From Candidatus Thiosymbion sp. (GTDB taxonomy: Bacteria > Pseudomonadota > Gammaproteobacteria > Chromatiales > Chromatiaceae): a stretch of 64,000 nt of DNA. The notes beneath the pieces are model-generated. The model saw nothing but the letters and a program-made list of their open reading frames with translations. It was not told where the DNA came from and did not search any database. Where the stretch lies: assembly GCA_018435665.1 (NCBI GenBank), contig JAHDND010000048.1:1-64000 (forward strand), read 5' to 3'. The position numbers were made by a program, and so were the translations under genes. Positions 42,588 to 47,495 of the stretch are shown piece by piece (the stretch's first letter is position 1; every line of letters begins with the position of its first letter).

Positions 42588-42927
42588 GTAGCCTCCGGGT
42601 TTGAGGCTTGAACGGGGCGAGCGATGCAGGGTGCCCGGCTGCCCATTCCCCCGTCACCCTGGATCTGGGCGGGAAGCCAACCGGCCATGTCGGTCCTGAT
42701 TCCCGGGTAACGACCTGGACCAATCTGGTTCAGATGCCAGGCCAGAGGCGCCCGGAAGGATATGTTCGCGGCACTGGGTGGTGGAGAGTATTAGCGTAAC
42801 AGGATTTACTAATATATTGACCGGGGTCAAAACCCTGGGCGCTGGCTGCTAGTATTCTTCATTGCGACGGACCTCGGCGGGTGATGCCGGGGGCCGCGCA
42901 CAACTCCAACCTTGAGGAGAAATATCC
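42588..42927. promoter_or_regulatory. Upstream region of the sulfur globule protein gene
   Basis: No gene is present. The last 150 nt are AT-richer than the surroundings. They contain a perfect palindrome TTGACC-GG-GGTCAA at 42817-42830 and the nearby TAATAT, about 100 nt before the ATG. The palindrome could be an operator. TTGACC alone resembles a -35 box, but no -10 lies at the right distance. A ribosome binding site, TTGAGGAGA, precedes 42928. Confidence 0.35.
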
Positions 42928-43275
42928 ATGTCGATCAACAGACGTTTGCTGCTTGCCGCCGCCATCGCCGGTTCGACGGTGCTGGCATCCTTCTCCGCGA
43001 ATGCCTTCTTCGGCGCCATGAACCCCTTCCGGAGCTGGGGTGGTGGGCCTTGGGGCTGGGGGGGTGATCCCTGGTATGGCGGATACTATCCCTATGGCGG
43101 TTACTCCCCCTACTACGGGGGCTGGGGCAATCCCTACGGCTGGGGTGGCTACCCCGGGTGGGGCGGTTATCCGGGCTGGGGCGGCTATCCGGGGTGGGGT
43201 TATCCCGGCTGGGGCGCCTATCCCTATGCCGCGCCCGCGGCTCCCGCCGCGCCGGCTGCCAAAAGCGCCAATTAG
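42928..43275 (+). CDS. Sulfur globule protein (Gly/Tyr/Trp-rich secreted structural protein)
   Basis: This 115-aa protein has a classical signal peptide (LLLAAAIAGSTVLASFSANA, cleavage near residue 26). The mature part begins FFGAMNPFRSWGGG and continues as GGYPGWGGYPGW-type repeats rich in Gly, Tyr, Trp and Pro, then ends in an Ala/Pro tail. In purple sulfur bacteria, small keratin-like Gly/Tyr-rich secreted proteins (Sgp) form the envelope of periplasmic sulfur globules, and this one matches in size, export and composition. No sox or dsr genes are adjacent, so the call rests on composition. The strong ribosome binding site GAGGAGA suggests high expression. Confidence 0.72.
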   Translation: MSINRRLLLAAAIAGSTVLASFSANAFFGAMNPFRSWGGGPWGWGGDPWYGGYYPYGGYSPYYGGWGNPYGWGGYPGWGGYPGWGGYPGWGYPGWGAYPYAAPAAPAAPAAKSAN

Positions 43276-43356
43276 TCTTTGAGACTGGCCCCGCGCCCGC
43301 CCCGTGCCCGCGGGCGTGGGGCGAAGCCGACGCCTCGCCTGGCTTCGAATCCCCCG

Positions 43357-46143
43357 ATGCACAGCCCCGCTGACGACGACGAACTGCGTCGCGATATCGA
43401 TCTCTTCACCGCCCTCCTCGGGGAGGTCCTGCGCGAGCACAGCCCCAAGCGGGTGCTGGTGATGGTGGAGCGCCTGCGGGAGGGTTTCGCCGCCCTGCGC
43501 GAGCGGCCGGACCCCGCCCAGCTCGACCGGCTCCTGCAACGCATCCAGGCCCTGGATGCCCAGACCCTGGCAGAGATCATCCGCTCCTTCACCATCTACT
43601 TCGGCCTGGTCAACACGGCGGAGGAGGTCCACGGCTACCGACACCGGCTGGATCAGGTCAGTGAGGGCGGTCCCCTCTGGGTCGGTTCCTTCGATCACAG
43701 CCTGCGCCAGATGCAGGCGGAGGGCATTGGCCCGGGGGAGTTGCAGCGCCTCCTGGACCGCCTGCTTTACCTGCCGGTGTTCACCGCCCATCCCACCGAG
43801 GCCAAGCGCCGCACCATCCTCGAGACCTTCCGCCGCATCTTCCTCCTGGCCCAGGACCTGCGTACCCGCCGCCTCAATGAGGAGGAGGCCGAGGAGCGCC
43901 TGGGGGCCATCCTTGCCCAGATCCAGATCCTGTGGAAGACGGACGAGGTCCGGGTGCACAAGCCCCAGGTCGCGGACGAGGTCAAGCAGGGGCTCTACTT
44001 CTTTCGCGAGTCCCTCTTCCAGGCCGTCCCCCAGGTCTACGCCAGCTTGGAGCGGGTCACCCGGCGGGTCTATGGCGCCGAGGCCGGCATCCGCATCCCC
44101 AGCTTCATCCGTTTCGGCTCCTGGATCGGCGGCGACCGGGACGGGAATCCCTTCGTCAAGCCCGAGACCACGGCCCTGGCGGTGCGCATGCATCACGCCC
44201 TGGTGCTGGAGGCCTACATCGACCGGGTTCGCGACCTGGGGCGGATGCTGAGCCACTCCGACAGCCTCTGCCAGCCCTCGCCCGCCTTCCTCGACAGCCT
44301 GGATGCCGACGAGGGCTACTGGGTCGAGACCATGGGCGAGAGCCTGCGTCGTTATGTTCATGAGCCTTACCGGCGCAAGCTGGCTATCGTCCGCCATCGC
44401 CTGGAGGCCAACCTGATCCGGGTCCAGGCCCGCCTCGCCAACGCCCACGAGGACCCACCCCGGGGTTACGACGAGGCCAAGGACTTCCGCCGCGACCTCT
44501 ATCTGATCCGCGACTCCCTCATCAGCCATGGCGACGCCAGCGCCGCCACCGGTCCCTTGCGGGACCTGATCCGTCTCGCCGAGAGCTTCGGCTTCCACCT
44601 GATGCATCTGGACCTGCGCCAGGAGGCGGGGCGCCACACCGCGGCGGTGGCGGAACTCTTCGCCCGCCAGACCGGCGCCCCGTACTACCAGGCCCTGAGC
44701 GAGGAACAGAAGCGGCTCGCCCTGGCGGAGGCCATCGGTCACCCCCATCCCTTCCACATTGACAAGCCCAGCCTCACCGCCGCCACCCGGGAGACCCTGG
44801 AGGTCTTCGAGGTCATGGCGCGCCTGGGGGCGGAGATCGGCCCCGAGGTCTTCGGGGAATACGTCATCTCCATGACCCATGAGGCCAGTCACGTCCTGGA
44901 GGTGATGCTGCTGGCGCGGCTGGCGGGCCTGGCCGGCCGTGACCCCCGGGGCTGGTTCTGCCGGCTGCGCGTCAGTCCCCTGTTCGAGACCATCGATGAC
45001 CTGAACCGCAGCGAGCGGGTCATGGCCACCCTCCTCGACGACCCGACCTACGCCGCCCTGCTGCAAGCCTCCGGCAACCAGCAGGAGGTGATGCTCGGCT
45101 ATTCGGACTCCTGCAAGGACGGGGGCATCCTCGCCTCCACCTGGCATCTCTACGAGGCCCAGCGCCAGCTCATCGCCCTGACCCAGTCGCGCGGCGTGGA
45201 CTGCCGGTTGTTTCACGGGCGGGGCGGTACCGTCGGGCGCGGGGGCGGACCCACCTATGAGGCCATCCTCGCCCAGCCGCCGGACACGGTCCATGGCCAG
45301 ATCAAGTTCACCGAACAGGGCGAGGTCCTCTCCTACCGCTACGCCAATCCCGAGACGGCGCGCTACGAACTGACCCTGGGCATCAGTGGCCTGATGCTCG
45401 CCAGCCGCTGCCTGATCCAGGCCCCGACCCCGGATCGTCAGGACTACCTGGGCGTGATGGACGAACTGGCCCGCCTGGGGGAGGAGGCCTATCGTGACCT
45501 GATCGCCAGCCCCGGCACCCTGGACTACTTCTATGAAGTGACCCCCATGGATGCCATCGCCCTGCTCAACATCGGCTCCCGGCCCTCCCATCGCCAGCAG
45601 GGGGATCGCTCCCTGGCCTCCATCCGCGCCATCCCCTGGGTCTTCGGGTGGGCCCAGTCCCGCCATACCCTCCCGGCCTGGTACAGCCTGGGCACCGCCC
45701 TGGAGCGCTGGCGCGGCGAGGAGGTGGAGCGCCTGGCCAAGTTGCAGAAGATGTACCGGGACTGGCCCTTCTTCCGCGCCCTGCTCAGCAACAGCCAGAT
45801 GGCCCTGTTCAAGGCCGAGCCGCGCATCGCCGAGCACTACCTGCGCCTGGCCCGGGACCCGGTCCAGGCTGGTCGGACCTACCAGCGCATCCGCGAGGAA
45901 TACCAGCGCAGCGTCCGCCAGATCCTCCATATCGCCGGGCTCCATCATCTGATGGAGGAGACCCCGGAACTCCAGCATTCCCTGGCCCGCCGCAACATCT
46001 ACCTGGACCCCCTCAACCACATCCAGGTCGCGCTGCTGGAGCGCTACCGCCAGGGCGCCACCCCCGAGGACCGCGAGCAGTGGCTGGACCCCCTGCTGCG
46101 GTCCATCAACGCCATCGCCGCCGGGGTGCGCAACACGGGTTGA
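43357..46143 (+). CDS. ppc: Phosphoenolpyruvate carboxylase
   Basis: Ppc carboxylates PEP to oxaloacetate, refilling the TCA cycle in autotrophs and heterotrophs. The 928-aa protein shows the catalytic His block FTAHPTEAKRRT (about 141-152), GSWIGGDRDGNPFV, the flexible-loop motif GRGGTVGRGGGP (about 622), FTEQGEVLSYRYANP, and the C-terminal LNHIQVALLERYR and AGVRNTG at the allosteric site. The ATG at 43357 was preferred because the frame upstream is Arg/Pro-rich and unlike the family. It lies 81 nt after the sulfur globule gene. Confidence 0.96.
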   Translation: MHSPADDDELRRDIDLFTALLGEVLREHSPKRVLVMVERLREGFAALRERPDPAQLDRLLQRIQALDAQTLAEIIRSFTIYFGLVNTAEEVHGYRHRLDQVSEGGPLWVGSFDHSLRQMQAEGIGPGELQRLLDRLLYLPVFTAHPTEAKRRTILETFRRIFLLAQDLRTRRLNEEEAEERLGAILAQIQILWKTDEVRVHKPQVADEVKQGLYFFRESLFQAVPQVYASLERVTRRVYGAEAGIRIPSFIRFGSWIGGDRDGNPFVKPETTALAVRMHHALVLEAYIDRVRDLGRMLSHSDSLCQPSPAFLDSLDADEGYWVETMGESLRRYVHEPYRRKLAIVRHRLEANLIRVQARLANAHEDPPRGYDEAKDFRRDLYLIRDSLISHGDASAATGPLRDLIRLAESFGFHLMHLDLRQEAGRHTAAVAELFARQTGAPYYQALSEEQKRLALAEAIGHPHPFHIDKPSLTAATRETLEVFEVMARLGAEIGPEVFGEYVISMTHEASHVLEVMLLARLAGLAGRDPRGWFCRLRVSPLFETIDDLNRSERVMATLLDDPTYAALLQASGNQQEVMLGYSDSCKDGGILASTWHLYEAQRQLIALTQSRGVDCRLFHGRGGTVGRGGGPTYEAILAQPPDTVHGQIKFTEQGEVLSYRYANPETARYELTLGISGLMLASRCLIQAPTPDRQDYLGVMDELARLGEEAYRDLIASPGTLDYFYEVTPMDAIALLNIGSRPSHRQQGDRSLASIRAIPWVFGWAQSRHTLPAWYSLGTALERWRGEEVERLAKLQKMYRDWPFFRALLSNSQMALFKAEPRIAEHYLRLARDPVQAGRTYQRIREEYQRSVRQILHIAGLHHLMEETPELQHSLARRNIYLDPLNHIQVALLERYRQGATPEDREQWLDPLLRSINAIAAGVRNTG

Positions 46144-46298
46144 GCCCTCGGGGGATGGGGGCGTAGCCATCCCTTTGCGGTCGCTCCCGTCTGACTTCTT
46201 CGGGTTTACCCTGAATCTCGCGCTTCGCTGGATGGGTTAAAATTCGCTCGGCGCTGTCTGCCCGACCGCATTTCCATCCCGATCCCACCAGGAGAGCC

Positions 46299-47495
46299 AT
46301 GCCCGCTCAGACACTGACTATCGTCAAGGCCACGGGTCAGGACGATACCCTGGCCCCCTTGACCCAGCACCGGGCCAAGGCCGCCGTGCCCTTCGGCGGC
46401 AAATTTCGCGTCATCGATTTCACCCTCGCCAACTGCCTGCACTCCGGCCTGCGCCAGATCCTGGTCCTGATCCAGTGGAAGTCCCATTCCCTGCAAAAGC
46501 ACCTGCGCGATGGCTGGTCGATCTTTCATCCCGAACTCGGGGAATACATCACCCCCATTCCGCCGCAGATGCGCGAGGGGTCCGAATGGTATGGCGGTTT
46601 CTTCAGCGCCATGCGCCAGAACCGTTTCCTGATCGAGCGCAACGCCAAACAGGATGTCCTGTGTCTGGATGGCAACCTGGTCTACCGCATGGATTATGCC
46701 GAGCTGATCCGCTACCACCGGGAGCGCGGGGCCGCCATCACCATCGCCTGCCGGGGGGTGGATACGGGGCCGGCGCCCGAGGTGGTCTTCGACCTGGCGG
46801 GGGAGGATCGGGTGCGGGGCTTGCTGCCAGGACCGGAGCTGCCGGCCGGCGGCGGTTGCGCCCCCATGGGCGTGTACCTGTTCGAGCGGGATTTTCTCCT
46901 CGACTTGCTGGAGTCGCCGGAGGAGGTCTCCGCCGCCGATGCCCTGTCCATGGCCGAGGCGGTGACCCGCCTCGCGGAACGGGTGGAGGTGTGCGTCTAT
47001 CGCTTCGGCGGTGAGCGCGGCCGGGTGTCTCCGGATCGTTACTGGAACGACCTGCGCGGTATCGATGCCTATTACGCCGCCAACATGGCCTTGCTGGAGC
47101 ACGACCCGCCGCTAAATCTCTATCAGAACGACTGGAACATCTTCACCGCCCAGGGCCAGAACCCGCCGGCGCGAACGGTGCCAGGCCTCTCGGGCACCGA
47201 GGGGATCTTCGTTAACTCCATGCTGGCGGCGGGTACGGTGGTCAGCGGCGGGGGGGTGAACCACTCCATCCTCTTCCCCCGGGTGATGGTGCAGGATGGC
47301 GCCATCGTCGAGGACGCCATCCTCTTCAACGGCGTCTCGGTCGGGGAGGGGGCCCACCTGCGCCGGTGCATCATCGACAAGGATATCCAGGTGCCACCCC
47401 AGACCCAGATCGGGTTGGACCCGGTGGCGGATCGTGCCCGCTTCCAGGTCTCCGCGGGGGGGGTGGTGGTCATTCCCAAGGATTTCCGCTTCTGA
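46299..47495 (+). CDS. GlgC-like ADP-glucose pyrophosphorylase homologue with lost catalytic motifs
   Basis: This 398-aa protein keeps the overall GlgC pattern: PLTQHRAKAAVPFGGKFRVI, DFTLANCLHSGLRQILVL, KSHSLQKHLRDGWSIF, a C-terminal left-handed beta-helix (GIFVNSMLAAGTVVSGGGV) and VIPKDFRF at the end. The nucleotide loop that should read LAGGxGxRL is instead KATGQDDTLA. The WYxGTADAVxQN block reads WYGGFFSAMRQN. The LAGDHIYxxDY block with the catalytic Asp reads LDGNLVYRMDY (Asp to Asn). The WRDVGT block reads WNDLRG. It therefore looks like a pseudoenzyme or regulatory subunit rather than an active glycogen-pathway enzyme. The frame is intact. Confidence 0.82.
   Translation: MPAQTLTIVKATGQDDTLAPLTQHRAKAAVPFGGKFRVIDFTLANCLHSGLRQILVLIQWKSHSLQKHLRDGWSIFHPELGEYITPIPPQMREGSEWYGGFFSAMRQNRFLIERNAKQDVLCLDGNLVYRMDYAELIRYHRERGAAITIACRGVDTGPAPEVVFDLAGEDRVRGLLPGPELPAGGGCAPMGVYLFERDFLLDLLESPEEVSAADALSMAEAVTRLAERVEVCVYRFGGERGRVSPDRYWNDLRGIDAYYAANMALLEHDPPLNLYQNDWNIFTAQGQNPPARTVPGLSGTEGIFVNSMLAAGTVVSGGGVNHSILFPRVMVQDGAIVEDAILFNGVSVGEGAHLRRCIIDKDIQVPPQTQIGLDPVADRARFQVSAGGVVVIPKDFRF

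Follow-up and report, generated by a model that had tools for sequence, protein, structure and literature searches.

The 64,000-nucleotide stretch of DNA analysed here (the window) carries a paralogue of ADP-glucose pyrophosphorylase (AGPase, GlgC) that is probably non-catalytic and acts as a regulatory subunit, and the best explanation of the sequences compared is that such a subunit evolved independently of GlgD from Firmicutes and of the large subunit of plants. We also lean towards the broader proposition that Proteobacteria own a non-catalytic, effector-sensing AGPase subunit, derived from an extra GlgC paralogue in which substrate binding was lost at least five times, and independent of both GlgD and the plant proteins.

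In textbooks AGPase is the step at which glycogen and starch synthesis is controlled, and the enzymes of Gram-negative bacteria are treated as homotetramers. In Firmicutes, GlgD is an inactive GlgC paralogue modulating the kinetics of GlgC in GlgC/GlgD forms (PMC9093745, PMC5268466), the inactive GlgD of S. mutans being one example (PMC5268466), while gene duplication followed by subfunctionalisation gave rise to the large subunits of plants (PMC6218581). Proteobacteria are said to lack GlgD (PMC9093745), and a search of openly accessible literature retrieved no description of a non-catalytic proteobacterial AGPase. Non-catalytic bacterial AGPase subunits being already known in the form of GlgD, what is new is probably the occurrence of one in Proteobacteria; the expectation in a preliminary description of this locus that a bacterial counterpart of the plant subunit would be unusual is therefore right for Proteobacteria and too broad for bacteria as a whole.

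The gene encodes a protein of 398 amino acids in a frame that, as previously described, has stayed open (Table 1). The protein matches GlgC over its full length (E. coli GlgC in the PDB, E 1.5e-72) and combines the NTP_transferase domain with a left-handed beta-helix (Pfam NTP_transferase and Hexapep_GlmU), which is the fold of the GlgC superfamily. Its AlphaFold model, built from 73 sequences, reached a pLDDT of 89.5 and a pTM of 0.90 (with 15 sequences the pLDDT was 60), and aligns with the AMP- or FBP-bound structures of E. coli AGPase at a TM of about 0.9. The marks of catalytic GlgC (EC 2.7.7.27), namely the GGxGxRL loop, the Asp142/Asp276 pair, Lys195 and an NCBIfam score above the cut-off, are wanting: the protein scores 368.6 bits with PRK00725 (cut-off 470) and 301.8 with TIGR02091 (cut-off 424.9). 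The open frame, the profiles and the motif comparison thus bear out the earlier picture of a protein homologous to GlgC that has kept its scaffold but not its active site.

Table 1. Features of the degenerate GlgC paralogue in the window. Equivalences after the equals sign refer to E. coli GlgC unless stated; counts refer to the 48 degenerate orthologues.
Feature	Position	Strand	Remarks
Degenerate GlgC paralogue ('third' AGPase)	46299..47495	+	ATG at 46299, stop 47493-47495; 398 aa, intact ORF; profile and sequence matches, orthologues
Nucleotidyltransferase (NTP_transferase) domain, residues 9-266	46323..47096	+	Pfam PF00483
Nucleotide loop replaced, residues 11-18, ATGQDDTL (canonical AGGRGxRL); R32 equivalent = T17	46329..46352	+	
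Retained effector-pocket arginines R25 (=R40) and R37 (=R52), with K27 (=K42) and K35 (=K50)	46371..46409	+	R40, R52, K42 invariant in 48/48; K50 in 47/48
A28 (=P43)	46380..46382	+	A in 48/48
Retained Q59 (=Q74, signal loop) and S64 (=T79 of E. coli / Ser72 of A. tumefaciens, Fru6P site)	46473..46490	+	48/48
WYGGFFSAM for WYxGTADAV block (E. coli WYRGTADAV), residues 97-105; allosteric-signal residue W97 (=W113) kept	46587..46613	+	
Retained R114 (=R130, AMP adenine contact in E. coli)	46638..46640	+	48/48 invariant
LDGNLVY for LAGDHIY, residues 123-129; metal-binding D142 replaced by N126	46665..46685	+	
Retained D132 (=D148 of E. coli / Asp141 of A. tumefaciens, NN-1 inter-subunit salt bridge)	46692..46694	+	48/48
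LPGPE for VEKPA; glucose-1-phosphate Lys195 lost	46824..46838	+	G178 at 46830-46832
YWNDLRG for YWRDVGT, residues 248-254; D251 (=D276) retained	47040..47060	+	
C-terminal left-handed beta-helix domain, residues 289-392	47163..47474	+	Pfam PF24894; pLDDT ~95-99
K361 at the Arg386 (P1 pocket) position	47379..47381	+	K in 47 (1 gap)

Residues are numbered hereafter as in E. coli GlgC unless stated. The nucleotide loop GGRGTRL of E. coli reads TGQDDTL in the window protein, and AKPAV reads AKAAV. All main catalytic motifs had been described as replaced, and the loop and the WYxGTADA, LAGD and WRDVGT blocks are indeed changed; the exception is the second metal-binding aspartate, Asp276, which lies inside the WRDVGT block and is retained, as is Lys42. 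The loss of Lys195, as telling as D142N, is to be added to the list. A search among relatives combined with a contig scan recovered 48 orthologues bearing the same substitutions: R32, P43, T117, A118, H143, K195 and R275 are lost in every one of them and D142 in 44, the other four keeping it. Losses common to all 48 copies exclude chance or sequencing error as their source.

In 26 of the 88 columns that are at least 95% invariant among 41 canonical GlgCs, the degenerate clade no longer has the canonical residue; 24 of these fall within the nucleotide, glucose-1-phosphate or metal pocket segments, whose limits we assigned ourselves and drew partly post hoc, and 58 of the 60 other columns are not lost. 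Most of the replaced pocket positions are drifting: the 26 columns, nearly invariant among canonical copies, have a mean entropy of 1.63 bits, positions 194-196 reach 2.3-3.2 bits, and the sugar-phosphate loop 171-212 is the most variable stretch (2.49 versus 1.44 bits). This drift speaks against a rebuilt site; P43A and V277L, both nearly fixed, are exceptions to it, and R29-G30 is kept in most degenerate members, though the window's own genus has lost even this pair. Judged from known chemistry, the window protein would almost certainly lack normal AGPase activity by itself, and we strongly infer that catalysis is lost, the protein probably no longer binding ATP and glucose-1-phosphate productively; some residual chemistry may persist in some degenerate members, with Lys42 and Asp276 kept and, in four copies, D142 as well.

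Nearly all degenerate orthologues belong to Chromatiaceae, the purple sulfur bacteria, a few being labelled only Gammaproteobacteria. Their hosts span some 20 named genera, cultured type strains among them, and include Thiocapsa, Allochromatium, Thiocystis, Chromatium, Lamprocystis, Thiohalocapsa, Marichromatium and Halochromatium. They form a single clade (SH-aLRT 99) nested within GlgCs of Proteobacteria and Holophagaceae. The nearest relatives, at 52-57% identity, are an intact 'third' GlgC of Methylobacter, Thiogranum, Thiohalobacter, Holophagaceae and others, which has the same length and effector pocket and, unlike the window clade, retains all catalytic motifs in 31 of 31 sequences. Just outside the degenerate clade stands EFPC_118 (L082 = G017) with an intermediate site, in which R32 and D142 are kept and P43 and K195 lost.

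The window genome (5.0 Mb in 263 contigs, estimated as 100% complete) belongs to a GTDB family that takes in Allochromatium warmingii (L106) and Thiorhodococcus (L107). The earlier proposal of a true GlgC elsewhere in it was correct, and the refuting condition set alongside it, that the window protein is the only GlgC of the strain, fails, as two canonical copies were found (L002, L003). GlgC 'a' (contig C188) scores above the PRK00725 and TIGR02091 cut-offs and adjoins glgB and a GH57 gene, while GlgC 'b' (contig C23) scores above that of PRK00844; the window protein shares about 33-40% identity with canonical copies. Three matches to the glgA model lie above cut-off, one of them partial, so at least two GlgA are encoded. 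Besides the paralogue, purple sulfur bacteria hold one or two normal GlgC copies, and each of the 40 named genomes in which the paralogue occurs, be it degenerate (23/23) or intact (17/17), also encodes another, canonical AGPase. Two further genomes yielded no other AGPase match, G026 with an intact paralogue at 82% completeness and G041 with a degenerate one at 75%, which may reflect genome incompleteness. The 'b' type (PRK00844-like) is present in 23/23 degenerate genomes versus 2/17 sister genomes, an association that is not independent evidence because the degenerate genomes form one clade; gain of this copy as a general cause of decay was rejected, since none was found in G010, where decay took place independently. 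As a separate observation, one canonical GlgC-type match (G104:C12:59189-60379) contains a single in-frame TAG.

Residues of the effector pocket and of the subunit interface, in contrast, are kept. R40, R52, Q74, S79, W113, R130 and D148 are invariant in 48/48 degenerate copies; Ala replaces Ser79 in G056, a further sequence outside the 48. In characterized enzymes R40, R52 and R386 constitute the phosphate (P1) pocket for activators and AMP (PMC6773804; for R40 and R52 also PMC9234290), R130 is the AMP arginine (PMC6773804, PMC9234290), Ser72 of A. tumefaciens AGPase is the Fru6P site (PMC9234290), and the signal-loop and inter-subunit residues are represented by Gln67 and Trp106, and by Asp141, of the A. 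tumefaciens enzyme (PMC10461462). The lysine at the Arg386 position also occurs in 31/31 canonical sisters. Conservation of the beta-helix is higher among degenerate copies (mean entropy 0.68 bits) than among canonical sisters (1.05 bits), and dN/dS was 0.04-0.19 in the 14 degenerate pairs with measurable dS (0.098 between the window copy and its nearest kin, INTA.CYC.166), the same level as in canonical sister pairs (0.05-0.16). The degenerate paralogue is under purifying selection that spares effector and interface residues, and two marks of a regulatory subunit, coexistence with a catalytic AGPase and effector-site residues retained under selection, are found.

On a tree built without the catalytic columns, loss of Lys195 needs five changes, all forced by the starred branches, the count coming from a single gene family in whose tree some nodes are weak; Lys195 is accordingly reconstructed as lost independently at least five times. 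The lineages concerned are the purple-sulfur clade with EFPC_118, the G010/G110/G168/G176 group, G122, G069 and, in another family, G041. P43A recurs in three of the five, Ala having been acquired convergently in G010-type and G041 copies. R40, R52, Q74, R130 and D148 are kept in every lineage, and so is S79, bar G056; G069, G102 and G041 lack W113. Members of the G010 group are milder relatives that keep R32 and D142. Within their genus (g8), G010, G110, G127, G168 and G176 are devoid of Lys195 and Pro43 and the congeners G083 and G155 are intact; here the loss is recent and independent. In genus g66, the copies L163 (G069) and L162 (G102) have D276 replaced by N or H and W113 by A or T, so that residues disappeared here in a different order from the purple-sulfur clade. 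A very divergent degenerate copy from a different family, L051 (G041:C271:4752-5930), carries R32E, D142A and D276K.

In the window, the paralogue lies between ppc upstream and a gene for an HhH-GPD glycosylase downstream. Antisense to ppc runs an open frame of 1103 aa (42859-46170, minus strand), which is expected from high-GC codon bias and is no gene. In many other Chromatiaceae the paralogue follows lepA...recO-pdxJ, in others it adjoins gpmI or hldE, and serS is also found among the neighbours. Co-location with glg genes was observed neither in the window nor in the other Chromatiaceae neighbourhoods examined, and no glg operon surrounds G010 or the intact sister copies of Methylobacter, Thiogranum, Thiohalobacter and Holophagaceae. 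These mostly housekeeping or varied surroundings support orthology and say little on function. In the window genome GlgC 'b' lies between gpmI (iPGM) and gmhA-hldE (L058, G000:C23, 2724-8869), and elsewhere in Chromatiaceae it is the degenerate copy that has gpmI (L088) or hldE (L106) as its neighbour; neighbourhoods common to two AGPase paralogues may reflect history or function.

A regulatory partner, one of the options raised in the preliminary description, emerges as the best reading, given that neither the effector pocket nor the Asp of the NN-1 interface varies. The paralogue would keep the GlgC fold, the surfaces of the beta-helix and N-terminal interface and the pocket for sugar phosphates or AMP; we infer that it would join a canonical GlgC in a hetero-tetramer, the first candidate partner being the GlgC encoded beside glgB, and that its pocket would tune the response of the catalytic subunit to fructose 6-phosphate, FBP, AMP or Pi. 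An invariant pocket would, however, serve just as well a homo-oligomeric sensor, in which a dead AGPase homotetramer binds sugar phosphate or AMP and regulates a target other than GlgC, and the varied, glg-free neighbourhoods (ppc, recO-pdxJ, gpmI, hldE) and the low identity to canonical GlgC agree with such a role. We regard it as unlikely: a canonical GlgC accompanies the paralogue in every named genome searched, the strongly kept NN-1 Asp and beta-helix also fit a mixed tetramer, and both precedents, GlgD and the large subunit of plants, work as parts of hetero-tetramers.

The retention of Lys42 and Asp276, the near fixation of P43A and V277L, the recurrence of P43A in independent losses and the R29-G30 kept in most members could be read instead as the rebuilding of the pocket for a different reaction or substrate. 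The drift of most replaced columns and of loop 171-212, the disappearance of R29-G30 from the window's genus, and the lack of any conserved substitute set of sugar-phosphate or metal ligands in the degenerate clade make this quite improbable. There is also little probability that the protein is a weakly active AGPase which, as part of a mixed tetramer, still makes ADP-glucose; D276 and K42 remain, D142 persists in four copies, R32 and D142 are present in EFPC_118 and the G010 group, and some plant large subunits are reportedly catalytic (Ventriglia et al. 2008, as listed in the references of PMC6218581), yet R32, D142, K195, T117, H143 and R275 are all absent together from the window protein. 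Loss of otherwise invariant residues might suggest a decaying pseudogene or an assembly artefact, which is scarcely credible and was refuted by frames without a stop in the window copy and the listed full-length orthologues, by dN/dS of about 0.1, by losses common to some 20 named genera including cultured type strains, and by synteny conserved in many of them.

If the window gene does encode a regulatory subunit, purple sulfur bacteria would control glycogen synthesis through hetero-oligomeric AGPases, and a dead subunit conserved across Chromatiaceae would change the picture of Proteobacteria as having homotetramers and no GlgD. Intact sisters and intermediates would constitute a natural series from catalytic subunit to regulator, so that existing genomes would span the passage from active to dead subunit even inside one genus. 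Allochromatium vinosum is listed as a source of Fru6P-activated AGPase (PMC9234290), and a survey counted two glgC in strain DSM 180 (PMC4301808); studies of purple sulfur AGPases on extracts or on the product of a single glgC may have missed a partner.

Among known systems, the window protein resembles GlgD, an inactive GlgC paralogue with intact fold beside a catalytic GlgC, its own inactivity being predicted. Unlike GlgD, the window gene lies outside any glgBCDAP operon, and its product scores 165.2 bits on TIGR02092 (cut-off 236.6) versus 302 with the GlgC model, no higher than canonical GlgCs (150-184 bits); GlgD membership was rejected on these NCBIfam scores. With canonical GlgC (E. coli, A. 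tumefaciens; L002, L003) it has in common the fold (TM ~0.9), Arg40/Arg52, the signal residues and the NN-1 Asp, and it differs in lacking R32, D142, K195, T117-A118, H143 and R275. Large subunits of plants and green algae likewise combine duplication, loss of catalysis and effector sites retained or tuned (PMC6218581), but the window clade, whose hetero-tetramer is putative, has lost a much larger share of the active site, and trees without plant rows place this clade inside proteobacterial GlgCs. In phmmer comparisons the small and the large subunits of plants were near-equal matches for the window protein (E 1e-38 to 1e-36), and E. coli GlgC was a far better one (1e-72).
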